A stretch of 42,169 nucleotides of DNA. It comes from Hymenobacter oligotrophus. Lineage in GTDB: Bacteria; Bacteroidota; Bacteroidia; Cytophagales; Hymenobacteraceae. Below are positions 15,987-42,169 of this stretch, in pieces; position 1 is the stretch's first letter; each line of letters starts with the position of its first letter. A program made the translations under genes and the position numbers. Location of the stretch: NCBI RefSeq assembly GCF_003574965.1, contig NZ_CP032318.1, forward strand, positions 1 to 42,169, written 5' to 3'. The notes beneath the pieces are model-generated. The model worked only from the letters and a program-made list of their open reading frames with translations. It was not told the origin of the DNA and made no database searches.

Positions 15987-16034
15987 GGAAGTCAGGGGAA
16001 TAAGCGAAGAAAAAGGGGGGCTGGGCGCGGCGGG

Positions 16035-16649
16035 CTACCAGTCCACGAAAAAGTTGGCCACACCCACGAGCACCAGCACGGCCCCCGTCAGGCGCCGCTC
16101 GTGGTGGGCCAGCCCGTTCAGGGGCAGGCGGCCCAAGCCCCGGTGCGCCAGCGCTACCAGCGCGCACATGGCCGACACCGTGGCCAGCAGGTACAGGCCC
16201 ATGAGCAGGGCCAGGGCCGCTGGCCCGTGGGTGCCGGCGGCCAGGAAGAAGGTTTGGATTTCCAGACAAGGCGCCAGAAACATGGTGGCGGCCAGCCCCA
16301 GGACTACTTTCCGCGCGGACCGGCGCGGGCGAACGGGCGCGGGGTCCGGGTGGGTATGGCCCGGGCCCGAGAAGGCGTAAAGCAGTCCGATGCCGATGAG
16401 CAGCACCGGTGCTATCCAGGCCGCCACCTGGGCAAAGCGGCCCGACAGGTGCCAGCCCAGCAGGCCCAGCGCCAGGCCAATGCCCACGGTGCTCAGCACG
16501 TGCGCGAGCCCGGCCACGGCCGTCACGCCCACGGCCCGCCGCACCGGCCACTTTTCCGCCCGTGCCACGGCCAGCACCGGTGCCCAGTGGTTGGGAATCG
16601 TGGCGTGCAGTAGGCTGAGTAGCAGGGCACCAGTAAGCAGTTCAAGCAT
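16035..16649 (-). CDS. UreH/NicO-like six-TM membrane protein
   Basis: A 204-residue membrane protein. TM1 contains LLHATIPNHWAPVLA (about 12-26), a His-x-x-x-Pro-x-His pattern like that of NicO/UreH-type nickel-cobalt or sulfur-related transporters. A His-containing loop (GHTHPDP, near 96-102) lies between the halves, and a Cys in TM4 is in MFLAPCLEIQTFF. It lies between the adaptor of the CzcA pump and the ATPase, with gaps of 29 and 48 nt, so it is probably part of one metal-resistance operon. Metal efflux or delivery is inferred; the family match is by pattern only. Confidence 0.6.
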   Translation of the reverse strand: MLELLTGALLLSLLHATIPNHWAPVLAVARAEKWPVRRAVGVTAVAGLAHVLSTVGIGLALGLLGWHLSGRFAQVAAWIAPVLLIGIGLLYAFSGPGHTHPDPAPVRPRRSARKVVLGLAATMFLAPCLEIQTFFLAAGTHGPAALALLMGLYLLATVSAMCALVALAHRGLGRLPLNGLAHHERRLTGAVLVLVGVANFFVDW

Positions 16650-16678
16650 GAGGCAGTGGACTGAGGGAGAAAGGCAGG

Positions 16679-17866
16679 CTATTCTTCTTCCTCCGCGTTT
16701 TTGAGTTTGGCTAGCAGCGAGTACGCCCCCTCGGTGACGAAGGTGGTCGTAGCGGGCACGGTTTCCGGCAGGGTGACTTCCGTAAAGTCGTCCTCGCTAC
16801 GGCCCGGCTTTACGGGCACCATGCGGTAACGGCCGGGCTGTTCCACAGCGAAGGCATATTGTTGGCCCTCAAAGCGCACCAGCGCCGCGTTGGGCAGCGT
16901 GGGCGCGTTGGTGCGGCCGGTTTCAATCAGGGCGCGCACGTAGAGGCCCGGCAGCAGGGCCGGGTCGTTTTCCTTATCCAGGTGGCCGTGCACGCGCACG
17001 GTGCGGTCGGCGCCGATGGCCTTGCCGACCAGGTACACGTGCGCCGTGCGGGTGTGGGGCTTGCCGGTGGAGTCGCTGGCCAGGGTGAAGCGAATCAGCT
17101 GCCCTTTCTGCACCCGGGCCACGTCCCGCTCGAACACGGTCAGCTCCACGTGCAGGTGCTCGGGGTCTACGATTTCAAACAGGGGCTCGGTGGCCGTCAC
17201 GCTCTGGCCCACCGTGACGTTGACGGCCCGCACAAAGCCGGCCCGCGGGGCGCGCAGGGCGGCCGTGGTCACGATGCCGCCACCCACGGGCAGGCCGGCG
17301 ATGCGCAGGCGGGCGGCCTGGGCGCTGGTTTGCACCTGCAGGGCTTCCACTTCGGCCTGGGCCCGCTGGTAGTTTTTCAGCGGGGCCACTTCCTGCTGGT
17401 AAAGCTCTTTCTGTCGGGCCAGCTCGGCCTGGGCGAACTTGAGCCGGCTGCGCGTTTCCAGGTAGGCCTGCTGCAGGGTTACGAATTCGGGGTTGCGGAT
17501 GACGGCCAGCACCTCGCCTTTGCGTACGCGGCTGCCCTGCAGCAGCTCGGTGCTTTGCACGTAGCCGCCCAAAGGAGCAGTGATAGACAGGGAGCTTTCC
17601 GGAGGCACGTCCAGCGTGCCGTTCACGGCCAGGCCCGCGCCCATGGGGCGGTCGGCTATCCGGCCGGTTTTGATTCCGCCGGCCTGTTGCTCGGCCGGGG
17701 ACAGCGTGACGACGTCGGAGGCGGCTTCGGTGGATTCTGTTCCGCCATCCTTACCGGCTGGGGCGGTTTCCGTTGTATTGGTTTCAGCTTCGGTGGGCTT
17801 GTCCTTGCCGCAGCTGGCCATTAGGGTCAGGCTTAGCAGCAACGAGAGAGATGCAATCTTATTCAT
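16679..17866 (-). CDS. CzcB/CusB-like periplasmic adaptor lipoprotein
   Basis: A 395-residue membrane-fusion protein with a lipobox (LTLMASCGKD, Cys19). It has an acidic Thr/Glu-rich linker (24-50), then a barrel-sandwich fold (LSITAPLGGYVQSTELLQGSRV), a helical hairpin (about 125-185), a second lipoyl half (ALRAPRAGFVRAVNVTVGQSV) and a beta-barrel domain. The C-terminus ends in EEEE. There is no N-terminal CusB Met cluster or CzcB-type His-rich segment. It begins 24 nt after the CzcA-type pump gene and should join the pump to the outer-membrane part that is fused to it. Confidence 0.9.
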   Translation of the reverse strand: MNKIASLSLLLSLTLMASCGKDKPTEAETNTTETAPAGKDGGTESTEAASDVVTLSPAEQQAGGIKTGRIADRPMGAGLAVNGTLDVPPESSLSITAPLGGYVQSTELLQGSRVRKGEVLAVIRNPEFVTLQQAYLETRSRLKFAQAELARQKELYQQEVAPLKNYQRAQAEVEALQVQTSAQAARLRIAGLPVGGGIVTTAALRAPRAGFVRAVNVTVGQSVTATEPLFEIVDPEHLHVELTVFERDVARVQKGQLIRFTLASDSTGKPHTRTAHVYLVGKAIGADRTVRVHGHLDKENDPALLPGLYVRALIETGRTNAPTLPNAALVRFEGQQYAFAVEQPGRYRMVPVKPGRSEDDFTEVTLPETVPATTTFVTEGAYSLLAKLKNAEEEE

Positions 17867-17890
17867 GCGGTTGATAGCAAGTGAAGGAGT

Positions 17891-22300
<4,410 letters not shown>

Positions 22301-25920: not shown

Positions 25921-26862
25921 TTATCGCAGGCCCACCATCTTGAGAAACAGCCCGCCCGGATTCTTGTCGGCCTTCACTTTGCCGGTTTTGTGCTTGTAGC
26001 AGAAGGAGAATAGGGCATTAAGCTTCTTGGCATCCCCCAGAATCTGGCTGACCAGCTTGGGATCCCGGATTTCCAGCTCCTCCAGGTTCAGCAGGGCCCG
26101 GCGCTGCTTTTCTTCCTCGGCCCCGTCCTCGAAGGGAATCGGCAGCTGCTGGGGCACTTGGCCGTTGACGAAGAAGCGGATGCTGTGGAAGGAGCGGCCC
26201 TTTTTGATCAGCTCGTAGTTGATGCGCAGGTCGGTGTGCTCGTTGATTTGGGTGGTGGCCACGTCGAGCACGTACTTCTGCAAGGCCGAAATCTTCTCGT
26301 ACTGCTCCGGCTCATGGCCCTTGGGGTCCTTGAGCGAGAGCATGATTTTGAACTCGTCCAGGGTGAAGGTTTTGGTTTCGCCAATGTCCTTCCACTGCGA
26401 GGCAATCTGGTAGATGCGCTTGGCGTACTTGCTCGACAAGCTGAACACCGACTGCAGGCGGTAGGAGGTGAAATTGTTTTTCAGGTCAATCAGGTAGCGC
26501 CGCATGCGCTCCGAGATTTCCAGCTCAATGATGCCTTCCCCCTTCACGTACAGCGCCGAGGCCAGTAGGCCCACCTGCAACACGTGCTTGTTGTCCTCAA
26601 TCACATATTCGCGGCTGCGCAGATTAGAGGTAGCTTCTAACAGCCGCTGGTAGTTCCAGGAGCGCCCCGTCATCTGCTCCAGCTCCTTCACCCGGATGCG
26701 GTAGATGGTGCCCGGCTTATCCTCCTTGCGCAGCACCGAGAGCAGGGAAAAGACAATGTCCATCTCGACGGCGCTCATCTCGTAGCGCGCGGTGGTAATG
26801 GCATTGTGCTGCCGGATTTCTACCCCCGTGGAGGGAGTGCTGGCGGTAACGGGGGTACTCAT
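25921..26862 (-). CDS. repB: Rep_3 (RepB/RepE-type) replication initiator
   Basis: A 313-residue initiator with two winged-helix domains. Typical parts are IRQHNAITTARYEMSAVEMDIVFSLLS (residues 16-42), GRSWNYQRLLEATSNLRSREYVI in the first domain, ISERMRRYLIDLKNNFTSYRL, LSSKYAKRIYQIASQWKD and FKIMLSLKD in the second. Rep_3 proteins bind iterons as monomers to open the origin and repress their own promoter as dimers. The gene is on the minus strand and is read away from the iteron region, whose first copy lies about 65 nt upstream. Its promoter contains a perfect TATCTTTG box (26898-26891). The C-terminal part is charged and may be flexible. Confidence 0.93.
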   Translation of the reverse strand: MSTPVTASTPSTGVEIRQHNAITTARYEMSAVEMDIVFSLLSVLRKEDKPGTIYRIRVKELEQMTGRSWNYQRLLEATSNLRSREYVIEDNKHVLQVGLLASALYVKGEGIIELEISERMRRYLIDLKNNFTSYRLQSVFSLSSKYAKRIYQIASQWKDIGETKTFTLDEFKIMLSLKDPKGHEPEQYEKISALQKYVLDVATTQINEHTDLRINYELIKKGRSFHSIRFFVNGQVPQQLPIPFEDGAEEEKQRRALLNLEELEIRDPKLVSQILGDAKKLNALFSFCYKHKTGKVKADKNPGGLFLKMVGLR

Positions 26863-30272: not shown

Positions 30273-31358
30273 GTGGCAATTCAGGACGGATTCTTCAACG
30301 CCCGCGACCAGGTTATCTACAATCGACTAGGCATCACCAATGCCGAGCAGTTGCGCCAAGTAGAAGCTGACTACTCGATCCCGATAATGGCCCAGTTGCT
30401 GGCGGGCACGTTGGAGATACCCGGCCAGTTCAACGCCGCGCACCTGAAGCAGATCCACCGAACCCTGTTTCAGGACGTATATGATTGGGCCGGCCAAACC
30501 CGGGCCCATGGACCCGAAGGTCCTTTTCAGGGTCAAAAACCGGCCTTCGTGCTCAATCCGCAGGGCGACATGATGCGGTATGCGCCCTACGCGCAGCTCG
30601 ACCAGCGGCTGGATGCTATTGGTGCCCAGCTTCAGCAGGAAAATACGCTGCGGGGCCTGAGCCCGGCACAGTTCGCTGAACGGGCAGCATACTACTTCGA
30701 CCAGTACAATCATGCGCATGCCTTCCGAGAAGGTAATGGGCGCACCATTCAGGGGGTACTAGCCGTACTGGGCCGGCAGGCCGGGTACCAGGTTGAATTG
30801 AAGCCGGCTGCGGCTGCTCAGCTCAACAACGCGCGCGACCTGGCTATTATCCGGCCCCACGGGCCCGGGCAGCCCGTGAAAAATCTGGAACCGTTGACCT
30901 TACTGTTACGCTCAGGTATTACTCCACTGCCCGGACCGGAAGCCGTCCACTGGCGCGACCCCAGCCAGGCGCGGCCGCTGACCGAACCCACGCCTGCTAT
31001 GCAGCGCATGGAAGCTCAGCGGGTACTGCAGGCTAGTGCCTACGTCATCGGGGCGGCCTTACGCGACATTGACCGGGGCGATACCACCCGGGGTAATCAA
31101 CTGTTGCAGCAAATGACGCTGGTGCTGCACGATCCTGCCCGGGCTGGGGAGCAGAGTGCAAGCCTGCAGCAGGCCGCCTTGGAGGTGTCCAAGCACCCGA
31201 TGTTACGGCAGGAAGCACCACTCATGCAACAGGCCGTGGCCCTGGCCCACAGCGTGCAGCAGCTGGTGCAGCTGGACTCACTTGCACGGAAAAAGACGCA
31301 AAACCAATCCCCTAGCGATACGGTAGCAGCTCCTAAACGCCGGGGGCCAAGATTGTAG
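30273..31358 (+). CDS. VbhT-like Fic domain toxin
   Basis: A 361-residue protein with a Fic domain in residues 10-175. The N-terminal part matches VbhT-like proteins (YNRLGITNAEQL, LKQIHRTLFQDVYDWAGQTR). The active-site loop is HAFREGNGRTIQ (His149 to Gln160), so it has the catalytic His and the GNGR phosphate loop but lacks the final Arg of HxFx(D/E)GNGRxxR. Such toxins transfer AMP to targets such as topoisomerases. The C-terminal helical part (180-361) is of unknown role. There is no ATG: the start is a GTG at 30273, 17 nt after the T-run, which together with the terminator suggests low expression. Confidence 0.88.
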   Translation: MAIQDGFFNARDQVIYNRLGITNAEQLRQVEADYSIPIMAQLLAGTLEIPGQFNAAHLKQIHRTLFQDVYDWAGQTRAHGPEGPFQGQKPAFVLNPQGDMMRYAPYAQLDQRLDAIGAQLQQENTLRGLSPAQFAERAAYYFDQYNHAHAFREGNGRTIQGVLAVLGRQAGYQVELKPAAAAQLNNARDLAIIRPHGPGQPVKNLEPLTLLLRSGITPLPGPEAVHWRDPSQARPLTEPTPAMQRMEAQRVLQASAYVIGAALRDIDRGDTTRGNQLLQQMTLVLHDPARAGEQSASLQQAALEVSKHPMLRQEAPLMQQAVALAHSVQQLVQLDSLARKKTQNQSPSDTVAAPKRRGPRL

Positions 31359-31361
31359 TAG

Positions 31362-32711
31362 TTAGTTAAGATTCATGCGTTGCTGCACCTCCCCAATGGC
31401 CGCGATGTAACGGGTGAACAGGTCGAGTGCACCCCGACGGGAGGTAGTTATCACCTCATACACGCCAGTGCCGGAACGGAAGACATACTCGGAATAGGCA
31501 CATTTAGGAATCTGGCGGTTGTTGTTGAAACGCCGGTCAGGAGAACCGCTTTTGTTCACGTAGCGCCACGTATGGCCAACAATTGTCGCATCCGAAGGAA
31601 CGCTGCCATCTTCAATGAACGTAGAGTCCCGCGAGATAAGGTGAAGATTTTTATAGAAGACGGCCGCGAACTGGTTGTTGCGACGAATGACCAAGCGTTC
31701 AGGAAAAAAGTATAGTTCAGTGTTGCGCAGCCCCAGATACGGAATGGGAACATTGGTTTGCAAATGACGGGTGGGCTTCCGGTTCAAGGATACGCCCCCA
31801 AGACCGATGCGCGAAATGGCATTACTGGCCCCGGCATTGCGCCGTCGGTCGTTGATACGTTCGGAGTGTAGGTACTGCCAGACCCTGTGCGAGTTGGAAA
31901 TCTGACCAAAGGCTTTCAGAAAGTCGGCGTGTACCTGGGCTAAATCGTCGTTGAACTCATAGTTGATTTCCAGTGTCAGACGCCTTTTGTCAATCCGCGC
32001 CAGGTATATGTAAGCGGCTAACACAGCCGCCAGGCAAAAGGCCAGACCAGTCCAGAATAAGCCAGGCTGCTCGTCTAAGCGCAGGTATTGTTTGACTTCC
32101 GGAACGCGTGCAATACGGGCGAATTTCTTGGAAACGTACTGCCCAGTCGACACCCCATACCAGTGGTTCATGGTACTGTCAGTAAGGGGGAGCATGCTAC
32201 CGTAAATCGCCGAGCCGACTACGGGAGCTTCCGGGTCGGGCTGCTGCCGAATCTTGATGCCACTGGAAGCGGTGATTTCCACCTTCGGGATGATGGTTTC
32301 CTCCGTGCGCGTGACTTGGCCGAAGTAGCTGAATAAGCCAACGCCTAATAGCAGGGCTAAGGCCAGCGTACCCCACTTGGCAAATGAAATCTTGGCGGCT
32401 TTCTCGGTTAGCTCGTTGATGAAGTCCTGCGAGTCAACGTCGCTGAGCTGGGTTATCTCATCGGAGGTAATGGTATGCAGGTGCCCCTGAGCCGTAGGCA
32501 GCGGCGCGGGTGGATAGGACGGGCTGTGAGGGGTAGTGTGCTGTAGGTATTTGCGGTACTGAATGCCACCAGCCCCCAACGAAACGTAAGTTCCTCGCTG
32601 ATTAACACCAATCCTGGCGCCTTTCACGCCAGCAGAGTAGCCAATGCCCCGGGTAGATAAATTGACCCGCATAGGGCCGAAGCTAATGGATTTGCGAAAC
32701 GAGAATCCCAT
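31362..32711 (-). CDS. DUF4236 membrane protein with SH3-like domain
   Basis: A 449-residue protein. Residues 1-55 are a DUF4236 domain (FRKSISFGPMRVNLSTRGIGYSAGVKGARIGVNQRGTYVS), a short beta-rich module found on many prokaryotic membrane proteins. A linker is followed by TM1 (WGTLALALLLGVGLFSYF, about 112-129), an extracytoplasmic SH3-like segment (SGIKIRQQPDPEAPVVG to WYGVSTGQYVSKKF), TM2 (FWTGLAFCLAAVLAAYIYLA, about 219-238) and a C-terminal alpha/beta part with strands (YLGLRNTELYFFPERLVIRR). The gene is divergent from the phospholipase-D-like gene and 3 nt from the end of Fic. It may be a sensor or anchor. Confidence 0.75.
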   Translation of the reverse strand: MGFSFRKSISFGPMRVNLSTRGIGYSAGVKGARIGVNQRGTYVSLGAGGIQYRKYLQHTTPHSPSYPPAPLPTAQGHLHTITSDEITQLSDVDSQDFINELTEKAAKISFAKWGTLALALLLGVGLFSYFGQVTRTEETIIPKVEITASSGIKIRQQPDPEAPVVGSAIYGSMLPLTDSTMNHWYGVSTGQYVSKKFARIARVPEVKQYLRLDEQPGLFWTGLAFCLAAVLAAYIYLARIDKRRLTLEINYEFNDDLAQVHADFLKAFGQISNSHRVWQYLHSERINDRRRNAGASNAISRIGLGGVSLNRKPTRHLQTNVPIPYLGLRNTELYFFPERLVIRRNNQFAAVFYKNLHLISRDSTFIEDGSVPSDATIVGHTWRYVNKSGSPDRRFNNNRQIPKCAYSEYVFRSGTGVYEVITTSRRGALDLFTRYIAAIGEVQQRMNLN

Positions 32712-32881
32712 GGATAATGGATAAAAAGTCTATTCGCAATATACACGGGTCAAGGAATGTCCCAACTCACTTCTTGCGAGGAAATTAGGAATGCAGCCAC
32801 AGTCGATTTATCTCATGGTAGTCCGTGTGGCACGTGAGCTATCAAACTCTAAATTGCGCGTTGATTGCCTGCATTCGTTAC

Positions 32882-33730
32882 ATGAAGATTCTCCAGCCCC
32901 ACCAAATCAGCAGTGAAGTATTAGAGGTGATTCACTCCGCCCAGCAGTACTTAATCCTAGTGTCGCCCTACGTAAAACTAACCCAGTGGCAGCAGCTGGC
33001 CGCAGCCCTAACGGCAGCCAAAGGGCGGGGAGTACGGATTGACTTTTTCGTGCGTAACGACCCCGATAATGCGGGCAGTTGGGAGCAGGTGGAGGCGCTG
33101 GGGCTGAAAGCGCGGCTAGTAAGCAACCTGCACGCAAAGTTCTACTTCAGTGAAACCAGCGGAGTTATTTCCTCCATGAACTTACTGGCCAGCTCAAACA
33201 GCAACTCCATCGAAATTGGCTGCAAACTGGAAACGCAGACGGAGTTGGACGAACTCAAAAGCTTTGTGAAGCGCTTCGTGGTGCCGCACGAAATGACCGA
33301 GCGGCCAACGGAAGCCGACCTATACCTGACCAAGGAGCGGTTCAGCGTGGCTTTGGAACACTACATTGCCGACCAGACCCGGCGGGACGCGCGGGTGACC
33401 TTCCAGAAGGACGAATTCGAAATCCGCGCGGTGTCGAACACGTTCTTCTTGTACGTGGACAAGGCTACGAATCGACTTTTCCTAAGTGCCATTGTCTCGG
33501 AAGCTGAGGCCAGCGTGTTTGAGGCGCGGCGCTCAATGTTCTTCACGTCTCCAGCTTTCCGATATGAGTTGGACAGAGGCGATCGAGGACACTATAGTAT
33601 GGTGGAAGGCGCTTATCAGCCCCGGTTGTCAACAGCATACCTAGATAACCTACGACTGCCTGAAAAGAAGCAATTGATAGCGGAGGTAATGACCTTTATA
33701 AAGAGCGTCCGAGCTTTTAAGGACGCTTGA
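32882..33730 (+). CDS. single-HKD phospholipase-D-like protein
   Basis: A 282-residue protein from the ATG at 32882; a GTG start at 32825 is possible. Residues 10-115 form one PLD/nuclease domain with LHAKFYFSETSGVISSMN: His84, Lys86, Ser/Asn98-100 and Glu111, a HxKx4D-like motif with Glu or Ser in place of Asp. Only one HKD is present, so a dimer would be needed to complete the site, as in Nuc- and BfiI-type enzymes. The C-terminal half (150-282) is unrecognised. PLD proteins in defence gene islands often act as nucleases. It is divergent from the DUF4236 gene by 170 nt and convergent with the caspase module. Confidence 0.8.
   Translation: MKILQPHQISSEVLEVIHSAQQYLILVSPYVKLTQWQQLAAALTAAKGRGVRIDFFVRNDPDNAGSWEQVEALGLKARLVSNLHAKFYFSETSGVISSMNLLASSNSNSIEIGCKLETQTELDELKSFVKRFVVPHEMTERPTEADLYLTKERFSVALEHYIADQTRRDARVTFQKDEFEIRAVSNTFFLYVDKATNRLFLSAIVSEAEASVFEARRSMFFTSPAFRYELDRGDRGHYSMVEGAYQPRLSTAYLDNLRLPEKKQLIAEVMTFIKSVRAFKDA
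33704..33727. terminator. hairpin at the end of the PLD gene
   Basis: AGCGTCC (33704-33710) and GGACGCT (33721-33727), with a 10-nt loop, overlap the last codons of the PLD gene. It separates that gene from the convergent minus-strand genes; no T-run was seen. Confidence 0.4.
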
Positions 33731-33786
33731 CAACGATGTAGTTGTACTTCTCTACAGGATATTGGGCCTTGGTGCGTTCCTGCGAG

Positions 33787-34356
33787 TTAGGCAAGCCTTG
33801 GTTGTCTTAGTACCCATACGCTGTGCGTGTCAGCTAATGTCGTCTTCCCCTGCAGTGCCATACTGGTCATAGCAAGCAAGTAGCCAAGCCGGTTATGCCC
33901 TTCTATCAACTGGTGTGGCGCCATCAGTTCCTTTTCAGGAGGTAATGCGCCCAGCGATGCGACGTCCAATACTATTGGTGGGGTGCGCCAGGTACCACGT
34001 TCTTTCCAATGCAACACATCTCGCTGAGTGCAGCAAAACTCGTCGAATTCCCGACACCGTTCCCGCGTTTGAACGCAATCTCGGTAATCTTCCACTACGT
34101 AAAGATTCACCAAATCCTGCGTAGGCCATCGCTCTAAACTGAATTGCAAGGTGTCATAGTCCAGCCAAGCGTAGTTGCGACGGGTAACGTACTCGCCTTG
34201 CAACCCGTGGATCCATTGTTGGAGTACCTCTCTGGGGACGTTGGGCACTAAGGGGTGAACGCGTTGGTAGTACGCCTCAAAATCCCATATGGTATGCTCT
34301 GTTGGCAAAGCAGCCATTCGTTTCCACGATAGGGAGAAATCTTTAGGCTCTCGCAT
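33787..34356 (-). CDS. hypothetical protein with a ParB/Srx-like motif
   Basis: A 189-residue protein. In the C-terminal third it has PPIVLDVASLGALPPEKELMAPHQLIEGHNRLGYLLAM, where LIEGHNRLGYL resembles the core of ParB/sulfiredoxin-like domains (Gly-x-x-Arg loop). That fold can bind or hydrolyse nucleotides and cut DNA. The N-terminal two-thirds (WDFEAYYQRVHP, YAWLDYDTLQFSLERW) are not recognised and have many aromatic residues. It is the third minus-strand gene of the caspase-helicase set, 70 nt after the exonuclease gene. The motif is suggestive only. Confidence 0.5.
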   Translation of the reverse strand: MREPKDFSLSWKRMAALPTEHTIWDFEAYYQRVHPLVPNVPREVLQQWIHGLQGEYVTRRNYAWLDYDTLQFSLERWPTQDLVNLYVVEDYRDCVQTRERCREFDEFCCTQRDVLHWKERGTWRTPPIVLDVASLGALPPEKELMAPHQLIEGHNRLGYLLAMTSMALQGKTTLADTHSVWVLRQPRLA

Positions 34357-34426
34357 TAGACCTTTTCGTGGATCAGATTTTGGCAGCGGCCGACCGTTAG
34401 CTCTGGGCTACATGAATTGAAGTGGT

Positions 34427-35341
34427 CTATAGATTACGCAGAAAGTCTAGTTCCGACAGAATTTCCAACGGAGCCCCCTTTGCGATGAGCTTCACCGCTT
34501 TCTCTTGCTTACTGCTCATGCCGTCATCCCCGACCACACGGTAGTCCTGCTGGCCTACCACCAGGAAGGAAGTATCTTTAGTGACGCCGTTACTATTAAT
34601 CCCGCCGATGTCAGCAATGAGCTGCTGCGCGCTAGCACGCTGCATGGACGAGAGCGTGCCGGTGAATACCACGCTGCGGCCATAAAACAGGTTATCCGGT
34701 TTATGCTTAGCAGGGTCCCCCTTAATCAGGCTGGGGTCTTTAGAAGGATAGATACGCCGCGTTATGCAGGGGTGGTAACCGTCGGGATGCAGCTGGCCAA
34801 TGGTAGTTAGCAGCTTCTCCGCAAAGTCGTCCCGAGATGTTACACCGGCATGGGCAAAGGTTTTCAATGCTAGTTGCGCGCAAGCATGAGCATCACTAGC
34901 CGCGCGGTGATGTTGCAAGGGGATGCCGTGGAATTTACACAGCGTACGCAAGTCATAGGCGGGTAAGCCAGACCATACCTTCTTCGAAAAAATATAGCTA
35001 CAGACGTACTGCAGCGACGGAAAAGGCAATTCGTAGGCTTCCATCGTTCGGCGCAGCACGCTGAAGTCAAAGCCTGCGTTGTGAGCCACTAACAACTGAC
35101 CTTCCAACAGTGGCTGCAATTCGGGCCAGAGTTCGGCCCAAGTAGGCTGGTCGGCTACATCGGCAGGTTGAATGCCGTGGATGGAGATGTTAAACGAATC
35201 AAAATAGGGATACGAAGGAGGTTTTACCAACCAAGACCTAGTACTGGTTACCTGGCCGTCTTCCACGAAAGCTAAGCCTACTTCGCACGCACTGTCGCGG
35301 TCAGCCGTCGCGGTTTCAAAATCAATAGCAATAAACTTCAT
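34427..35341 (-). CDS. DEDDh 3'-5' exonuclease with BRCT domain
   Basis: A 304-residue protein. Residues 1-165 are a DnaQ-like exonuclease: Asp7 and Glu9 in FIAIDFETA, Asp92 in AHNAGFDF, and His145 and Asp150 in HHRAASDAH. All five metal-binding or catalytic residues are present, so it should be active. Residues 218-304 are a BRCT domain (YGRSVVFTGTLSSMQRASAQQL, TKDTSFLVVG, EKAVKLIAKGAPLEILSE). Similar exonuclease-BRCT proteins are widespread and trim DNA or RNA ends. Its gene lies 116 nt after the caspase-helicase and 70 nt before the ParB-like gene, so it may belong to the same system or be a neighbour. Confidence 0.92.
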   Translation of the reverse strand: MKFIAIDFETATADRDSACEVGLAFVEDGQVTSTRSWLVKPPSYPYFDSFNISIHGIQPADVADQPTWAELWPELQPLLEGQLLVAHNAGFDFSVLRRTMEAYELPFPSLQYVCSYIFSKKVWSGLPAYDLRTLCKFHGIPLQHHRAASDAHACAQLALKTFAHAGVTSRDDFAEKLLTTIGQLHPDGYHPCITRRIYPSKDPSLIKGDPAKHKPDNLFYGRSVVFTGTLSSMQRASAQQLIADIGGINSNGVTKDTSFLVVGQQDYRVVGDDGMSSKQEKAVKLIAKGAPLEILSELDFLRNL

Positions 35342-35457
35342 AAGCAGTCTGAGATAGCCAGAAAATAGTGGCAGAAGCGAAGCAAATTCAAGGTGAATAT
35401 GCAGTTTTAACCTCTGTTTTTACAAATAAAACGGGCACATTTTCATTAGCCACATGG

Positions 35458-38400
35458 CTAGGATGCCGGTGCTGCTTTGGCCAAGCTGGCGAGTTGCTGC
35501 TTTTCCCAGGATGTCCCTATCACTTGGCTTCTTTCTGGGCCAAATAACTTATTGGCAATGGGTTCAACAGCAGCCCACGCCTGCGATGGATCCACGATAT
35601 TGTGGTGTGCAAGCAAGAGTATTTCCCCGCGATTCAAAGCAGCCACCTTCAGCAAAGGAAGCGCCGAGGCTGGCAAGCCAACTTCTAGGCGTGTGGTTAA
35701 CAGATTCAGAGCATCGTCTTCCAGCAGCACCATGGGGTGAAGGGCTTGCACAATGGGCACAACCGAGCGAAAATGGTAGCGCGTTGCATCCACAATGCGA
35801 CGCACATCTCCGTAGCTAACCGGCACGAAGGGGGAGTTAGTATACGCTTGCTCCAGGTCTTCCAAAGAATCGCCCTGCAGCCATGCCTCTACTAGCAAGG
35901 CTCGCTTCGCCCGTCGTAAATAGGCCACTTGGTCTGGCAGAGAGATTTGGTACAACTGCACCAAGTCGTTGCCAATTTTGTGGGCTGCATGATAGGGCCA
36001 CGTCTTCTCTTTATTTCCGTTTTTGAATAGCGGCGTGTAGGTGTCATCAAGTTCCGGCAGCGCTTGCGTAAGAGCCAACAGCCGTTCCAGCGAAACGGTA
36101 GCTGGGTTCAGCTTTTGCAGCAAGTGCAATAGGCGCAAGATAGAGTCAAACGAGAGCGAAGAATTGGCACAGGCAAATCCAACGAGAGTTAGCTGTAGCA
36201 TAGAGCCTTCTTGCTCCACAATACTGGCCCTAATCAGCGAAATGATGATGTTTTCAACCTGTGCATCCATCTGGGGACGCCAGTCGGGGTTGTTGCGGCC
36301 CGCAATGTATCCCCCGTAAGTGTTGGCCAGCAGCGTGGCTACTTCCCGGCGGCCAACTCGCGAAATCTGAGCCAGCAGACGCAGTACCCATGTGGACAGA
36401 TTGCCGTTGGAAAATGAAGAACGCAATGCTTCTGGCTGCCCAAGAACGTAGTGCTGAAACAGTTGCCTCCGCTCCATGGGAGTGTTAGCCACGATGAACG
36501 ATTGTCCACGTTCGTTATAGCCCAGCCGGCCAGCGCGGCCTACCATGTTTTTGTATTCAGCAATGGTGAAAGGCTTCTGGTCTTCCCCAAGGAATTCTGT
36601 TTCCCCTAGAATTACTGCCGAGGCCGGCGTATTGATGCCAGCTGCGACAGTGGTAGTAGCCCCTAGCACCCGCACAGGACCCTGCTGGTCACGAAAAGCG
36701 CGTTCGACCACTTCCCGCTCTTCCCGAGATAGGTTACTGTTGTGAAAAGCAGTACCTCCCCGTAGGCAGTCGCGCAGCCTAGTAGAAGTAGAGGAGCGGT
36801 CTTGAGCAGGCAATGCCGCTATCACCGCATCCGCACTAGGTAAACCCAAGTCCTTGGCCAGGTAGCCCGCAACGCCTTCAGCTTTGCCACGAATGTTGCG
36901 GAATACAATAAGTTTAGCCGTCGGCTGCTGCGCAAGCAAAGCCTGTGCTAGGGGCACTATCACGTCCTGCGTGCTGGCTTTATCGCGGCGTATCTGCACG
37001 GCATGAGCAGACAGTAGCTGCCGTTTCTGCTGGAGCCCGGTGTCCGGATCTACGTACTCAAAAACGCCCGAGCGGTCAATAACACCTTCCTCTAAGGGAA
37101 CGGGCCGCCGGGTGGTAATCATTGCTTGGCAGCGCAGCCAATGCTCAAAGCCATTAGTGTTGCCGATAACGGCCGACAAGGCCACAAGCTGCGGGGTGAT
37201 ACCACGTTCGCGAGCAGACAGAATGTAGGTCAGCAACAGTTCAACGCTGATACCTCGGCTGGGGTCAGTGATAAACTGCGCTTCGTCCACTACTACCACT
37301 CCAATGCGGTTCAACGCGCCCTGGTTTTTAACCACCAGGTTTAGAAACATCTCATAGGTAAGCAGAGCAATGTCATACTTACCCCGCACAAAGGCATTGG
37401 TAGCGTCTTGGTAGTCTCCAGTGCACCGAACCACTCTTAGGCCCAACCGCGTGCCATAAAAGTCAGAAAACTGTTCATACTTCTCATTGGCCAACGCCTT
37501 ATAAGGTACCAAAAAAACAGCACGCTGGGTACTCACAGCAGCCTTGACAGCAGCCAGTTCTCCGATAAAGGTCTTGCCGCTGCTGGTGGGGGCTACAACT
37601 AGTAATGATTCACCGTCTAGTATCCGATAATCGTTGACCGCGCCCAGTTGCAGCTCGTTAAGCCCTTGGGAAAACTGTTGGTCCCAGAGTTGAACAACCT
37701 CTTCGGGTAAGCCGAAGCCCATTAAGTCCTGAATGTTTTCCGAAACCTTCAGTCCGGTTTGTTCAGGAAAGGCTTGGTAGTAATGTCGTCCGGCTTGTAG
37801 CGGGGGAATGGTAAAGCCCCCGTCTATATCTCCCACCCATTTGGGGGTTTGAGTCAGGCCCAGTCGTTGCGCCTCGGCACGTACCCGTCCGGCAACTTCA
37901 GCCATCAGACCTCCTACCTCTACTGGACCAGTAGCAGCACGTAGCGCCGCAGTCAAGGCCGAAGTCAATAGACCATGGCCCGCAGCCTCCCAAGCTTCTT
38001 CATCAACATTAGCTGCGGCTAAGAGCATACGCCCACGGCCGGAAAAAGCCGATTCCAAAGAAAATCCACCGCCGCGTGGCTGCAGACCATCTTCTATCAC
38101 CTTGGCCGGCGCCCCACCACTGAAACAGCAGTCGAGGACTAACAAAATATGGCGAGCCTTACTTTGGCGAAACCGTGTGGCCAGATCTGCCATAGATACC
38201 GTTGTCCCCGCCAAGTCCTCTATGTTGGTATCATGGGCTACTAAACGGTGATTATGAGTGCCGTGGCCAGAAAAAGTTAGTAGTACCACATCATCATCCG
38301 TCGCGGCATCCAGCGTCTGAGTAAGCAACTCATCAATACGGGACCGAGTAGCCTCCTCATCTACAAGCAACATTGGGGTGGCGTCAGGAAGTGTGTCTTG

Positions 38401-38511
38401 CCAAAGTGACCACAAAGCTGTGGCATCCCTACGGGCGCAGCTCAGGTCGGAAATGTCCGGGTCAGAATGGCGGTTGATGCCAATAAATCCGGAAAGAAAT
38501 CGAGCGGCCAT
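35458..38511 (-). CDS. caspase-like protease fused to Ski2/Hel308-like helicase
   Basis: A 1017-residue fusion. Residues 1-235 are a caspase-like protease: LLTFSGHGTHNH with catalytic His83, and LLVLDCCFSGG with Asp127 and Cys129. Residues 285-720 are a superfamily-2 helicase of the Ski2/Hel308 branch: APTSSGKT (307-314), VVVDEAQF (DEAQ 409-412), LSAVIG (445-450) for motif III, TTTVAAGINTP and EYKNMVGRAGRLGY (652-665). The remainder (720-1017) has winged-helix and helical parts. The His/Cys pair and both ATPase motifs are intact. The likely action is ATP-driven sensing of nucleic acid coupled to release of protease activity; this is inferred from the architecture. It is in a less GC-rich stretch than the plasmid core. 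Confidence 0.93.
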   Translation of the reverse strand: MAARFLSGFIGINRHSDPDISDLSCARRDATALWSLWQDTLPDATPMLLVDEEATRSRIDELLTQTLDAATDDDVVLLTFSGHGTHNHRLVAHDTNIEDLAGTTVSMADLATRFRQSKARHILLVLDCCFSGGAPAKVIEDGLQPRGGGFSLESAFSGRGRMLLAAANVDEEAWEAAGHGLLTSALTAALRAATGPVEVGGLMAEVAGRVRAEAQRLGLTQTPKWVGDIDGGFTIPPLQAGRHYYQAFPEQTGLKVSENIQDLMGFGLPEEVVQLWDQQFSQGLNELQLGAVNDYRILDGESLLVVAPTSSGKTFIGELAAVKAAVSTQRAVFLVPYKALANEKYEQFSDFYGTRLGLRVVRCTGDYQDATNAFVRGKYDIALLTYEMFLNLVVKNQGALNRIGVVVVDEAQFITDPSRGISVELLLTYILSARERGITPQLVALSAVIGNTNGFEHWLRCQAMITTRRPVPLEEGVIDRSGVFEYVDPDTGLQQKRQLLSAHAVQIRRDKASTQDVIVPLAQALLAQQPTAKLIVFRNIRGKAEGVAGYLAKDLGLPSADAVIAALPAQDRSSTSTRLRDCLRGGTAFHNSNLSREEREVVERAFRDQQGPVRVLGATTTVAAGINTPASAVILGETEFLGEDQKPFTIAEYKNMVGRAGRLGYNERGQSFIVANTPMERRQLFQHYVLGQPEALRSSFSNGNLSTWVLRLLAQISRVGRREVATLLANTYGGYIAGRNNPDWRPQMDAQVENIIISLIRASIVEQEGSMLQLTLVGFACANSSLSFDSILRLLHLLQKLNPATVSLERLLALTQALPELDDTYTPLFKNGNKEKTWPYHAAHKIGNDLVQLYQISLPDQVAYLRRAKRALLVEAWLQGDSLEDLEQAYTNSPFVPVSYGDVRRIVDATRYHFRSVVPIVQALHPMVLLEDDALNLLTTRLEVGLPASALPLLKVAALNRGEILLLAHHNIVDPSQAWAAVEPIANKLFGPERSQVIGTSWEKQQLASLAKAAPAS

Positions 38512-38825
38512 GAGCTATTGTAGTTGAGGTTTATTTAATGGTTTATCGCCATAGAAGGCTATGACAACGGCAAGGATGGAATTCCTCTCACCTTGAAATG
38601 GAGATTAGTGTACTTTACGATAAGCCTGTACCCATCTCTATACTCTACTAAAGAAGATGAGAGAGTTCGCTTTTTAAAGGTCCCTTTCCTTTCATGCTCC
38701 TTCATACTACTGCATAAAGACTGAGGTGAGGTCTCGCAACTGCTGCATCATGCTGTCCAAGTTGTCGTGCCGCTTGTCACTTTCTCTGACTGGCCTTCTT
38801 ATAGCAGCGGGGGGATAAAATTACT
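38512..38825. other. gene-free stretch between caspase-helicase and Tn3
   Basis: A 314-nt A/T-richer stretch with no gene supported in either direction. It should hold the promoter of the caspase-helicase gene (on the minus strand, near 38515-38560), although no perfect TAnnTTTG was seen. At its right end GGGGGGATAAAATT (38809-38822) is a candidate for the left tip of the Tn3 inverted repeat. Confidence 0.6.
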
Positions 38826-38846
38826 CTAAGCCGTTTCCAGTGGTTT
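38809..38846. mobile_element. candidate left terminal inverted repeat of the Tn3 element
   Basis: A G-run (38809-38814) begins a stretch that leads into the tnpA stop (38826-38828). Tn3-family ends usually start with GGGG and are close to 38 bp, next to tnpA. The other end is outside the window, so the match cannot be tested here. Confidence 0.3.
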
Positions 38847-41789
38847 TCGCAGGCTGCGCAGCCCGTTGGGCTGTACTTCTACCTGGCGAGGAAAGGTGTA
38901 CTTGCCCAACCGGTTGATGTGCTCATAACGGGCGGGCGAGAGCCGGGCCAAGTCTTCGTCGCGCACCTCCACGCCCTCCGCCCGTAGCGTCTGCACCACC
39001 TGCTGCAGATAGACCGTGTTCCAGAGCACCACCAGGTTGGTGACCAGGTTCAGGGCGCTGACGACCTCCTGCTGGGCTTCTTCCTGCTTGCGGCGGATGA
39101 GCCCGTCGCCCCCGAACCAGAGGAACACCCGCATCGCGTGCAGCTGCTCGCCCTTGTTGAGCTGCACGTGAATCTTGCGCCGCAAGGGCTGATGGAGCAG
39201 GTAACGCAGGATGAAATTGGTTTTGATGAGCCGCCCGTACTGCTGCAGCACGTAGGTCAGGTTGTGCTGGCGCGGGTAGGCCTGCAGCTTGCTAATGAAG
39301 AGCGAAGCCGTCACGTAGCCCAGCTTGAACGAGCCGGCCACCCGCAGCAGGTCGTCCAGGCGGGCCTCGATGTAGCCGGGCTGCACGTGGCCGGTGAAGT
39401 GCAGGCCCGGGTAGCTCAGCTCCCGGCCCCGGATGCGGCAGAGCTTCTGGTCGCCGATGTCGCGCAGACGCGGCGAGTATTGCAAGCCCAGCAGGTCAAA
39501 GAGCCCGAAAATCAGGTCCGTGTAGCCGTGTGTGTCGGTGGCATGCTCGAGGATGACCACGTCGGTTTCGTTGCCCAACACTTCATCCAGCACGTAGGTC
39601 GCGTCGCGCTCGGTGGCCGGGATGACTTTGCTGCCGTACTGGGCGTAGTGGTCGGCCGTGTGGGTATAAAACGTAACGCCGCGGCCGTAGCCGAAGTAGC
39701 GCGGCAAGGCTTTGGCGTTGCGCACGGCTCCGCTGACGGGGAAGCGCTGCCCGTCCGAGGAGGACAGGCCGCCCCCGCCCCAGTGCCGGGCCAGCCACTG
39801 GCGGTGCTGCTGGTTGACCACGCGGGTGGTGGCCGCCCGCAGCGGCTGCTCGTGCAAAAACTGGTGGGTAGCCCACCAGACCGTTTGGTAGTCCAGCCCC
39901 GTGCTGCGGGCCATGTCGGACAACGGGATGTTGCAGGCGGCCGCCAACAGGGCGGCGTACACCGGCTCCGGGTCGTCAACAGTCCCAGCCGATGCCTCGC
40001 GCAGCAGCTCCGAGAAACCGGTCCAGCCGTCCACCTCGACCAGAATGTCGGTCAGTTCGACCACCGGCATGCGGGCGCGAATGTGTTCGTCCAGCACCCG
40101 GAGCGAGTCCGGCAATTCCTCAGCCTCCAGCGCCGTCACCACCAATTCGCCCGCTTCCAGGCGTACCTCGCCGCCTTCGGCCAGCAGGGCCGTCACCTGC
40201 GGCAGCAGCGCTTCGAGTTCGGCCAGGCGGGCGTGCAGGCGCTGACGCGGGTCCTCCGGTAACCCCAGCTGGCGCAGCACCTCCCCGCGCAGGCCGGGCC
40301 ACTGGGCGGCCGGAATCAGGTAGCTCTCCAGGTCGGCGTATTTGCGCGAGCCGGGCACGAACACGTCGCCCGAGCGCAGCCGCTCGCGCAGGGTGGCCAG
40401 CACGCACAGTTCGTACGGCAACCGTTCCGGCACCTGCTGCGGGTGCACAAACCCGTGCCAGGAAGGCGTGATGAAGTCGGTTGGTGCATCGGCCGGCAGC
40501 TTGCGCCGCGCGCCGGTCTGCAACTCCACCACCAGGGTCAGGGCCTCGGCGAACCGGTCGCCGGCAAAGGCGCTGGCAAACGAGACCTGCCGCAGCAGGT
40601 TGGCCGAGAACTGCTTCAGGTGCGCGTAGCGCCGCAGCAAAAACGCCAGGGGCGAATCGAGGCGGGTGTCGCTCAGGGCATAGTAGGCCTGCAGGGCCTG
40701 CTCGACCTGCTCCCGCGGAATAGTCTCAAACACGGCTTCTCGCACCAGCCCGGCCGGGATCTGCTCGTCGACGACCGTGCGCGCCACCTGGGCGAAGACG
40801 CGCAGGGCCGTTTCGCGGGCCTGGCGAATGGCCTGCAGGTGCGCCTCGTGCTCGCGTTGGGCCTTGCGCTGAGCCCCGGCCCAGTAGTCGCTGAACATGG
40901 TCAGCACCGCGTCGAGCACGTCGCGGTAGGATTCCAGCACGAAGGCGACCAGCAGCGGGTAGCGCTTGGCCGGCGCGTAGCGGCCGATGGCCTGGCTGGT
41001 GCGGTGGCGCGCCCGGTGGGCCAGGCGCTTGCGCCGGTTGGCGTTCAGCCCGCCCGTGTCCCAGTCGGCCAGGCCCAGCTGGTGCAGGAAGTCCAGCTTG
41101 GCCAGGGCCTGGTTGATGGCCGCAGGCGTGTTGGCCGTCGCCGGCTGGCACAGCCAGCGGTGCGGCGTGACGCGCAACGCCGGGTCCACCGCCAGCAGCG
41201 CGTCGAGCCGCGCTTCCACCGCCGGCGTGAGCAGCGGGCCCAGGCGCTGGTACGTCGCCGCGTCGGTTTGCAGCAGGGCCTGGCTCACCAGCAGTTCCAG
41301 CACCGAGATGGCGGGCCGCAGCAACCGGTCCTGGTGCAGCTTCTGACAGGCGGCCTGCAAGAGCAGGCGCGGCTGGTCGTGCTCCAGGGCCCGTTCCAGC
41401 AGCCACGCTTCCAGGCCGGGGCTGTCCAGGGGCTGCCACTTGCGGTAGCTCAGGTGCCGCAGCACCAGCTGCAGGTGCTCGCTGCGGGTGGCGGCGCGCT
41501 CCCCATAGGCGGCTAAGGCTTCGGGGGCGATGCCCAGCTGCTGGCCGACAAAGGCGGCCACTGGCGCTGGCACTTGCTCGAACCAGTCCTCGGGCAGATA
41601 GCCCATCAGGCGCACCAGGCCCAGCTGCACGGCGCAGCCCAGGCGGTTGCCGTCGCGGCGCTGGCGCTGGATCAATTCCCGGTCAGCCGCCGTCAGGTGA
41701 AAGTGCTGGCGCAGGTCCGATTCGCTGAGCGTAGCCGGCACCTGCTGGTAGCTCTGCCGTTCGGGCGCGGTGAGGAAAGGCAAAATCAT
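38826..41789 (-). CDS. tnpA: Tn3-family transposase
   Basis: A 987-residue transposase, the usual Tn3 length. The N-terminal part is the DUF4158-like DNA-binding region (TAADRELIQRQRRDGNRLGCAVQLGLVRLMGY). The C-terminal half has the DDE triad: Asp679 in SSDGQRFP, Asp752 in DTHGYTDL and Glu903 or Glu904 in RRKQEEAQQE, followed by SALNLVTNLVVLWNTVY, a Tn3 signature. It copies the element by replicative transposition, leaving a cointegrate for the resolvase. The gene is intact and is divergent from the resolvase gene, as in Tn3. Confidence 0.95.
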   Translation of the reverse strand: MILPFLTAPERQSYQQVPATLSESDLRQHFHLTAADRELIQRQRRDGNRLGCAVQLGLVRLMGYLPEDWFEQVPAPVAAFVGQQLGIAPEALAAYGERAATRSEHLQLVLRHLSYRKWQPLDSPGLEAWLLERALEHDQPRLLLQAACQKLHQDRLLRPAISVLELLVSQALLQTDAATYQRLGPLLTPAVEARLDALLAVDPALRVTPHRWLCQPATANTPAAINQALAKLDFLHQLGLADWDTGGLNANRRKRLAHRARHRTSQAIGRYAPAKRYPLLVAFVLESYRDVLDAVLTMFSDYWAGAQRKAQREHEAHLQAIRQARETALRVFAQVARTVVDEQIPAGLVREAVFETIPREQVEQALQAYYALSDTRLDSPLAFLLRRYAHLKQFSANLLRQVSFASAFAGDRFAEALTLVVELQTGARRKLPADAPTDFITPSWHGFVHPQQVPERLPYELCVLATLRERLRSGDVFVPGSRKYADLESYLIPAAQWPGLRGEVLRQLGLPEDPRQRLHARLAELEALLPQVTALLAEGGEVRLEAGELVVTALEAEELPDSLRVLDEHIRARMPVVELTDILVEVDGWTGFSELLREASAGTVDDPEPVYAALLAAACNIPLSDMARSTGLDYQTVWWATHQFLHEQPLRAATTRVVNQQHRQWLARHWGGGGLSSSDGQRFPVSGAVRNAKALPRYFGYGRGVTFYTHTADHYAQYGSKVIPATERDATYVLDEVLGNETDVVILEHATDTHGYTDLIFGLFDLLGLQYSPRLRDIGDQKLCRIRGRELSYPGLHFTGHVQPGYIEARLDDLLRVAGSFKLGYVTASLFISKLQAYPRQHNLTYVLQQYGRLIKTNFILRYLLHQPLRRKIHVQLNKGEQLHAMRVFLWFGGDGLIRRKQEEAQQEVVSALNLVTNLVVLWNTVYLQQVVQTLRAEGVEVRDEDLARLSPARYEHINRLGKYTFPRQVEVQPNGLRSLRKPLETA

Positions 41790-41802
41790 GCGCTGGGGCG
41801 TG

Positions 41803-41937
41803 GGTCAAAAAGCCATGGCTTTCCGAACCCGGCGTCCCCGAGCCCCGCCTCCAGGACAAGTGGTCGAAAAGACGGGGCCAGAAAGTCGGGCCAAAAATAA
41901 ACGGCGGGTTATCTTTGTGAACCCGGCTTTTTGACCC
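41803..41937. promoter_or_regulatory. candidate res region between tnpA and tnpR
   Basis: A perfect 13-bp inverted repeat, GGGTCAAAAAGCC (41803-41815, give or take 1 nt) and GGCTTTTTGACCC (41925-41937), brackets the divergent promoter region. Tn3-type res sites lie here and bind the resolvase. The crossover core could not be picked out by eye. Confidence 0.5.
41910..41917 (+). promoter_or_regulatory. tnpR promoter -7 box
   Basis: TATCTTTG, a perfect Bacteroidota -7 box, 22 nt before the resolvase ATG. The right arm of the 13-bp repeat begins 8 nt downstream, so bound resolvase could repress its own gene. Confidence 0.6.
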
Positions 41938-41939
41938 GC

Positions 41940-42169
41940 ATGAACAAAACCTTCGGCTACGCCCGCGTTTCCACCCTCGACCAGAACCTGGACACCCAAC
42001 TCGACATCCTCACCAAGGCCGGGTGCGACCGCATCTTCCAGGACAAAATCACGGGCATGAGCCTGCAACGACCCGCGCTCGACGAGCTGCTGGGCTTGCT
42101 GCGCGAAGGCGACACGGTGCTGGTGGCGCGCTTCTTCCGCCTGGGCCGCAGCCGCGACCACGTCATTCA
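41940..42169 (+). CDS. tnpR: serine resolvase, N-terminal fragment
   Basis: The first 76 codons of a resolvase/invertase-family serine recombinase; the gene runs off the right edge. GYARVSTLDQNLDTQLD contains catalytic Ser11 and the usual Arg9. ITGMSLQRPALDELLG and VARFFRLGRSRDHV are typical of the catalytic domain. It resolves the cointegrate formed by the Tn3 transposase at a res site between the two genes. The DNA-binding end and the right end of the transposon are not in the window. Confidence 0.92.
   Translation, partial: MNKTFGYARVSTLDQNLDTQLDILTKAGCDRIFQDKITGMSLQRPALDELLGLLREGDTVLVARFFRLGRSRDHVI

Follow-up and report, generated by a model that had tools for sequence, protein, structure and literature searches.

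The 42,169 nucleotides analysed here (the window) make up the whole of one of the four contigs of the Hymenobacter oligotrophus genome, and on their minus strand lies a gene for a protein, P0001, in which a caspase-type protease is joined to a Hel308-type helicase. An earlier note on this DNA had described a caspase fold (His83, Cys129) fused to an intact superfamily 2 (SF2) helicase, a description upheld by the Pfam domains and by the position of these residues at conserved alignment columns. The gene and the parts of its product are:

35458-38511, minus strand: caspase-Hel308-type fusion protein P0001, 1017 residues (Pfam and NCBIfam matches, full-length homologues)
37792-38511, minus strand: caspase domain, about residues 1-240 (Pfam Peptidase_C14; structural model and Foldseek)
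38263-38265, minus strand: codon of dyad His83, kept in 57/57 aligned fusions
38125-38127, minus strand: codon of dyad Cys129, kept in 56/57
35602-37728, minus strand: Hel308-type helicase, about residues 262-970 (PDB profile match, structural model and Foldseek)
37570-37593, minus strand: Walker A motif APTSSGKT, residues 307-314, with Lys313 kept in 57/57
37276-37287, minus strand: motif II DEAQ, residues 409-412, with the fourth residue Q in 53/57 and H in 4/57

In Pfam searches P0001 matched Peptidase_C14 (1e-7, above the cut-off), DEAD (7.6e-23) and Helicase_C (1.1e-7). The caspase part (residues 1-250) was modelled with a predicted local distance difference test (pLDDT) score of 89.9, and Foldseek placed MALT1 first among the matches to this model (E 5.4e-12), followed by GSU0716, metacaspases and caspases. 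A profile search with the same part found the metacaspases Trypanosoma MCA2 and Arabidopsis MC4; in the alignments Asp29 and His83 match equivalent residues in both proteins, while Asp127 and Cys129 do so in MC4 only. The two aspartates of MCA2 line an acidic S1 pocket for Arg or Lys, and Asp29 and Asp127 of P0001 would stand at these metacaspase S1 positions. Orthocaspases are described as cutting after positively charged residues (PMC6426788). A stretch of low model confidence within residues 132-148, directly after Cys129, may mark an activation loop or may stem from poor alignment. The best NCBIfam caspase match was to the EACC1-associated bacterial caspases (NF047832, 2.9e-23), from which P0001 is set apart by a score of 82.5 bits against a cut-off of 140 and by its fused helicase. 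Its predicted fold and His/Cys dyad identify this half as a putative clan CD caspase-type protease of the metacaspase/orthocaspase group.

The other half, which had been called Ski2-like, is an SF2 helicase and is more exactly of Hel308 type. It matched NCBIfam PRK02362 at 3.6e-83, though below the cut-off of that model, and the PDB profiles of 2zj2 (4.9e-105) and 2va8 (over profile positions 263-999). A model of the full protein, built from a 50-row alignment (A3) that still held one HamB-like row (L096:13892-17047), reached a pLDDT of 89.7 and a predicted template modelling score of 0.88. Modelling had been proposed at the outset as a check; the model of residues 1-250 gave the caspase fold, with MALT1 as best match, and the full model a Hel308 fold over nearly the whole helicase length. 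The whole helicase part aligned in Foldseek with archaeal Hel308/Hjm, at template modelling (TM) scores of 0.80-0.87 by target and 0.56-0.60 by query and a root-mean-square deviation (rmsd) of 3.8-5.3, and with the helicase domain of human Pol theta (TM 0.68-0.80 by target). Since P0001 falls far below the cut-offs of the Hel308 equivalogs (231.8 bits against 1200 bits for NF040935, with 280.2 bits as its best score for any Hel308-group model), we call it Hel308-type, not Hel308. Hel308 and Pol theta also differ from it in having no caspase, and motif II is mostly DExQ in the P0001 family (53/57), whereas that of Hel308 is DExH. The SF2 motifs and the predicted fold over its whole length nevertheless mark this part as a Hel308-type helicase.

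A search for homologues of the whole fusion, which had likewise been proposed, returned full-length fusions in many phyla. An alignment of 58 rows (A2) was made without close copies and without loci that are split or cut by contig ends (for example L075, L078, L083, L093 and L104; L and G numbers denote loci and genomes), and removal of L096:13892-17047, the HamB-like neighbour of a fusion, left 57 fusions. The dyad histidine is present in all of these and the cysteine in all but one, so that the loss of the catalytic pair across the family, which the earlier note had named as a finding that would speak against it, was not seen. Asp127 is likewise kept in 57/57 and Asp29 in 56/57 (one gap), and Lys313 of Walker A, Asp409 and Glu410 of motif II and Arg659 and Arg662, the arginines of motif VI, are each kept in 57/57. 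Pairwise distances in the caspase and helicase parts agree closely (Mantel r 0.916, reached by none of 999 permutations), which indicates that the two halves travel together. In a quick tree of the helicase part, the 57 fusions form one side of a branch with support 100, opposite 9 other helicases, although the latter have long branches and joins of this kind can be false. The tree of the whole fusion splits into two deep groups of 43 and 14 rows. The 47 rows that carry a phylum label represent 16 phyla, with 20 label changes on the tree where the least possible number is 15, and joins such as that of Nomurabacteria with Niastella suggest horizontal transfer. As bins may contain foreign contigs, phyla seen in a single metagenome-assembled genome are provisional, and so is the sole archaeal case (L085), which is cut at a contig start. 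The recurrence of the fusion at full length in many phyla is more than chance would give; the fusion is a real conserved unit with its dyad and helicase motifs intact.

The family is rare and patchy, yet it spans these 16 phyla among the labelled rows. Relatives from genome contigs were taken as the best 80 of at least 445. Within the Hymenobacteraceae, 13 of 200 genomes match the fusion, 8 of them at full length (the source genome included) and 5 partially, and three of the partial matches contain in-frame stops. Scored on two candidates per genome, the fusion was found in 2/395 genomes of its own phylum, its own genome counted, and in 1/398 genomes of the phylum of a Methylobacterium locus (L039), that one being the seed itself. 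In 29 genomes picked for holding the fusion, the best helicase match lies in an open frame of at least 1003 residues; a second match occurs in four of them, at 42% in one genome, where a contig end cuts the frame, and at 30-31% in the other three, whose frames have 891-920 residues. At a coverage of at least 80%, the fusion is carried by 11 of 72,556 plasmid records, and several copies lie on contigs longer than 500 kb (L044, L047, L054, L061 and L077, for example). Phage carriage was considered and rejected: among 50,697 phage records, 17 match the fusion partly and none reaches 80% coverage; one of 14 viral-contig loci, L106, matches nearly full length (residues 5-957). An exchange of the effector was also considered for two plasmid helicases (L193 and L194, 26.9-28.4% identity) and set aside, as neither has a further Pfam domain.

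The surroundings of the fusion are enriched in defence genes. Nearest neighbours of at least 130 residues were scanned with the PADLOC models, leaving out the window, plasmid loci, Hymenobacter loci and close copies; the set comprised 243 of 249 selected proteins from 69 of 91 loci, five of the six absent proteins belonging to the QatA and QatB clusters and one being another protein. With 120 and 123 neighbour proteins, the two scans matched 138 and 231 models, whereas the 122 control proteins matched 19; these figures count models, not proteins, and many-model systems inflate them. The control came from the same genomes: 20 stretches were picked, of which 3 did not exist, and 122 of 149 open reading frames (ORFs) in 15 of the remaining 17 were used (one stretch with a single ORF). 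The 25 top models listed for each scan include those of Qat, Lamassu, Thoeris ThsA, class II pAgo, Dsr1, type III restriction and PtuA. A 7- to 12-fold gap is hard to explain away and, within the limits of model counts and of this control, the fusion lies in defence-enriched neighbourhoods. Nine plasmid regions were read from their annotation, which names a Piwi protein (L021), SAVED (L022), TIR and caspase proteins (L023, L024), a multiubiquitin/ThiF set (L019), ABC-three-component genes (L017) and another caspase (L018), and no such named defence gene in L020 and L025.

No partner is common to these neighbourhoods. ORFs called mechanically in the 91 loci, which include unthinned near-copies (L032/L038, L019/L059 and L021/L067/L082), were clustered, each cluster being named from one checked or annotated member. 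The largest recurrent cluster, a serine recombinase where checked, is found at 9 of the 91 loci, and a conserved hidden partner was on this count rejected; QatA-type (8, downstream), AbiEi-like (7, upstream) and ParA-type (7) clusters follow, with a small DUF2158 protein (6), P0003, encoded downstream of the fusion in the window (4), and an exonuclease-BRCT protein (3) being rarer. QatA-type genes lie downstream of the fusion at L051, L053, L069, L079, L083, L086, L093 and L097, directly so in seven of these and three genes further downstream at L097; at L051, L069 and L079 an AbiEi-like gene upstream completes a recurrent composite island (models checked on L069 only). At L096 (13099-17047) a gene for 263 residues, for which Pfam and PADLOC gave nothing within the limits applied, and then one for a HamB-like helicase stand right behind the fusion. 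A small ORF that could be a local regulator lies at six loci 3-6 bases upstream of the fusion (L019, L059, L062, L065, L086 and L094, the first two near-copies); it is a DUF2158 gene in L019.

The nearest experimental precedent is Hachiman, in which an effector is set free once a Ski2/Hel308-like helicase detects DNA; HamMAB, its protease-fused form, couples DNA sensing to a protease (PMC12278908, PMC12799240). Both use a Ski2-like or Hel308-like SF2 helicase as a sensor coupled to an effector, as is proposed for P0001, and differ from it in comprising two or three genes, with either HamA, a nuclease, or a trypsin-like protease paired with a pro-nuclease as effector, whereas P0001 is one chain. 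Membership of Hachiman itself was rejected, as HamA (DUF1837) was not matched among the scanned neighbours in the window (no HamA-specific search having been made at other loci) and the helicase fits Hel308 better by score and by structure: the best HamB model covers part of the protein at 107.5 bits, against 280.2 for the Hel308-group model, and HamB (8vxa) aligned with TM scores of 0.52 (query) and 0.47 (target) at an rmsd of 14.4. The top PADLOC model for P0001, just above the best HamB model, was the candidate PDC-M23B (1.6e-32, 110.5 bits), whose best stretch covers only residues 569-700 and which, being a model without description, names no system. In Canu (CanABC), a MALT1-like caspase domain acts in anti-phage defence (PMC12799240), and MALT1 is also the best Foldseek match of the P0001 caspase; Canu differs in having a separate pro-nuclease and a caspase with an Ig-like fold, while the caspase of P0001 is fused to a helicase and has no nuclease as a general neighbour. 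The MBL-fold pro-nuclease of Canu was not found among the scanned window neighbours, with no specific search at other loci.

Proteins that combine a caspase with a helicase have been counted before. A 2012 survey gave 12 of 671 bacterial metacaspases with helicase activity (PMC3501461), a 2021 survey of cyanobacterial orthocaspases found DEAD in 3 and Helicase_C in 3 (PMC8283722), and a 2020 review lists DEXDc on prokaryotic caspase homologues (PMC7475262). The passages concerned list these proteins, possible members of the P0001 family, as architectures only and do not treat helicase type, neighbourhood or a role in defence. A search of open-licence papers, in the parts available, found no caspase-helicase fusion treated as a defence system, which is no proof of absence.

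Taken together, the intact dyad and helicase motifs, the co-inheritance of the two halves, the defence-rich surroundings, the patchy occurrence and the lack of a fixed partner point to a single-gene defence candidate. From sequence, structural models and analogy we favour, with moderate confidence, the reading that P0001 is a DNA-sensing, caspase-executed protein of abortive defence. By analogy with Hel308 and the HamB of Hachiman, the helicase would engage unusual DNA: damaged DNA, or the single strands and forks present while a phage or plasmid replicates. ATP-driven movement on this DNA, or the loading of several molecules, would release or pair the caspase domains; Hachiman is a precedent for the gating of an effector by a Ski2/Hel308-like helicase (PMC12278908). 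The freed caspase would then cleave proteins of the cell after Arg or Lys, stopping growth or killing the cell before the invader spreads, and no dedicated substrate gene or partner would be needed next door. Sensing, gating of the caspase, cleavage and arrest or death are all steps that we infer.

Several observations weigh against this proposal. The nearest ORF shares the strand of the fusion at no more than 55/87 loci upstream and 51/90 downstream, which gives no overall operon signal, and no conserved substrate gene stands next to the fusion. The control stretches, unmatched for mobile DNA, also matched mad3, MkoA, MkoC, BrxF and Pycsar-type models, and systems with many models raise the neighbour figures. 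In a verrucomicrobial homologue (L054) the dyad Cys is replaced by Ser. The gene of the window, on what looks like a plasmid, is flanked on one side by a Tn3 transposase gene and on the other by two genes without a clear defence role, the nearest defence-type candidates being a weak PLD match and a Fic protein, and the rarity in the two phylum samples depends on those two candidates per genome.

The same domains could be read the other way, with the caspase regulating the helicase: P0001 would be a mobile helicase of DNA repair or replication restart whose protease trims itself or a repair factor. The likeness to Hel308, a repair helicase, and the several copies on plasmids agree with this, whereas the count of defence models, which took no account of repair genes, is high for the neighbours, the distribution is patchy with partial copies, and archaeal Hel308 works without a caspase. 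We regard this alternative as unlikely.

The setting of the gene bears on a second alternative. The contig looks like a plasmid, with a Rep3 initiator gene (25921-26862) and efflux genes: the minus strand of 13861-22300 encodes a P-type ATPase, a HlyD/CusB-type protein and an RND pump with a fused outer-membrane efflux part, which with a TauE gene on the contig would form a metal-efflux cargo. Upstream of the fusion gene, at a distance of 314 bases, lies a transposase gene:

38826-41789, minus strand: Tn3-family transposase gene, adjoining the fusion gene (NCBIfam transpos_Tn3, above the cut-off)

In the window, the sequence presumed to be the inverted-repeat end next to tnpA occurs once, and nothing else in the genome is a convincing second copy, so that carriage of the P0001 gene by the transposon is not supported. 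A simple consensus scan of the minus strand of 33600-38900 found no promoter-like site. The low GC content (guanine plus cytosine) that had been ascribed to the fusion and the two genes after it is real, as 31001-38800 has 53% whereas 1-31000 has 63% and 38826-42169 has 68%, but it is not peculiar to them: the low block starts near 31 kb, ahead of the three genes, and GC also drops at 3-5 kb and 26-28 kb. Within the block, 31362-32711 (minus strand) encodes a 449-residue protein with an N-terminal DUF4236 at a similarly low 54% GC. The plus strand of 30273-31358 encodes the Fic protein, with the motif HAFREGNGR where an HPF start is usual, a match to the PADLOC candidate PDC-S04 (7.5e-42) and a VbhT-like match below its cut-off; the PLD-type protein, with weak likeness to DrmC/MkoB, is encoded at 32825-33730 on the plus strand, adjoining the three-gene block on the opposite strand. 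The fusion might defend the plasmid or element on which it resides from competing plasmids and from DNA arriving by conjugation, not from phage, with the same machinery and another trigger. Eleven plasmid records at 80% coverage or more, the Rep3 initiator and Tn3 transposase of the window and a ParA-type ATPase cluster near 7/91 loci fit this idea, whereas the copies on contigs above 500 kb indicate that the gene is not bound to plasmids, and we give it a small chance, slightly below that of a caspase-regulated repair helicase.

It is improbable that P0001 is a plasmid-addiction or toxin-type gene whose helicase domain restrains the protease until the plasmid is lost. A single autonomous gene on plasmids would suit such a role, as would the small upstream ORF at 6/91 loci (DUF2158 where checked), whereas no neighbour cluster exceeds 9/91 loci, which leaves no antitoxin candidate, and several copies are on large contigs.

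The earlier note had grouped the fusion with the two genes that follow it, separated by gaps of 116 and 70 bases:

34427-35341, minus strand: DEDDh exonuclease-BRCT protein (Pfam RNase_T 1.3e-20, BRCT 1.1e-8)
33787-34356, minus strand: P0003, 189 residues, with an EGHNR motif and no family match (profile searches, homologue alignment)

The exonuclease-BRCT assignment was borne out by these Pfam matches, and all three genes are indeed on one strand. The ParB/Srx likeness of P0003 was not confirmed: the motif alone recalls it, no ParB or Srx profile matched, and membership of that superfamily was rejected. The motif is EGHxR in 8/8 aligned homologues (EGHQR in one); P0003 itself had no Pfam match at E 5 and no PDB sequence match at E 10, Pfam on the 8 homologues giving one chance-level match (0.18) with HMMER filters that drop most weak matches, and peptide patterns of P0003 found no relatives on viral contigs. 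Next to the fusion, the exonuclease gene occurs at 3/91 loci and P0003 at 4/91, all in Hymenobacteraceae, and one further exonuclease outside the 91 loci lies beside a fusion fragment (L192). Close exonuclease homologues (at least 88%) occur in 4 other genomes of 200, three of them beside the fusion or its fragment; in G167 the exonuclease-P0003 pair adjoins another gene and a broken remnant of the fusion is on a different contig. Relatives of the exonuclease at 61-63% were found in G001, G017, G100 and G112, genomes without a fusion match. P0003 is present in 7/200 genomes, its own included: G123 has one copy behind a fusion that lacks the exonuclease neighbour and another away from the fusion, and G092 has a 39% relative and no fusion match. 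At L187 the pair has a relative of the window's Rep3 protein nearby, and L017 carries an annotated replication initiation protein, which makes the pair look like part of a plasmid region beside which the cargo would have been inserted.

The three-gene set is a local arrangement on related plasmids. That fusion, exonuclease-BRCT and P0003 act as one system is thus very improbable, for while they are adjacent on one strand in the window and in the Hymenobacter relatives L017 and L027, they are together at so few loci, the pair is beside another gene in G167, and P0003 is apart from the fusion in G123 and in fusion-less G092. With the set goes the support for an exonuclease step in the mechanism first proposed. 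The earlier note had also held that partners which never co-occur, together with a lack of defence-island neighbours, would count against it; the partners do nearly never co-occur, and the neighbours are rich in defence models. The fusion is probably an important single-gene defence candidate, for which the core idea of that note stands as the best reading and its gene set does not.

More tentatively, and with rather less assurance than the defence role itself, P0001 may represent a widespread one-gene immune protein of bacteria, and possibly archaea, in which a genome-integrity helicase of Hel308/HELQ type directly switches a caspase. Sensing of DNA damage or forks and execution by a caspase would then lie in one chain, a minimal parallel to DNA-damage-triggered apoptosis. 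If this is true, bacteria own a one-protein link from the sensing of abnormal DNA to caspase execution, built with a helicase whose family works at damaged DNA in animals. Such a protein would allow a direct test of whether a protease can be gated by the motion of a helicase along DNA, and the helicase-sensor systems would gain a module that is minimal and transferable. Hel308, which one paper describes as absent from bacteria (PMC12278908), would gain a bacterial relative that serves as an immune sensor.

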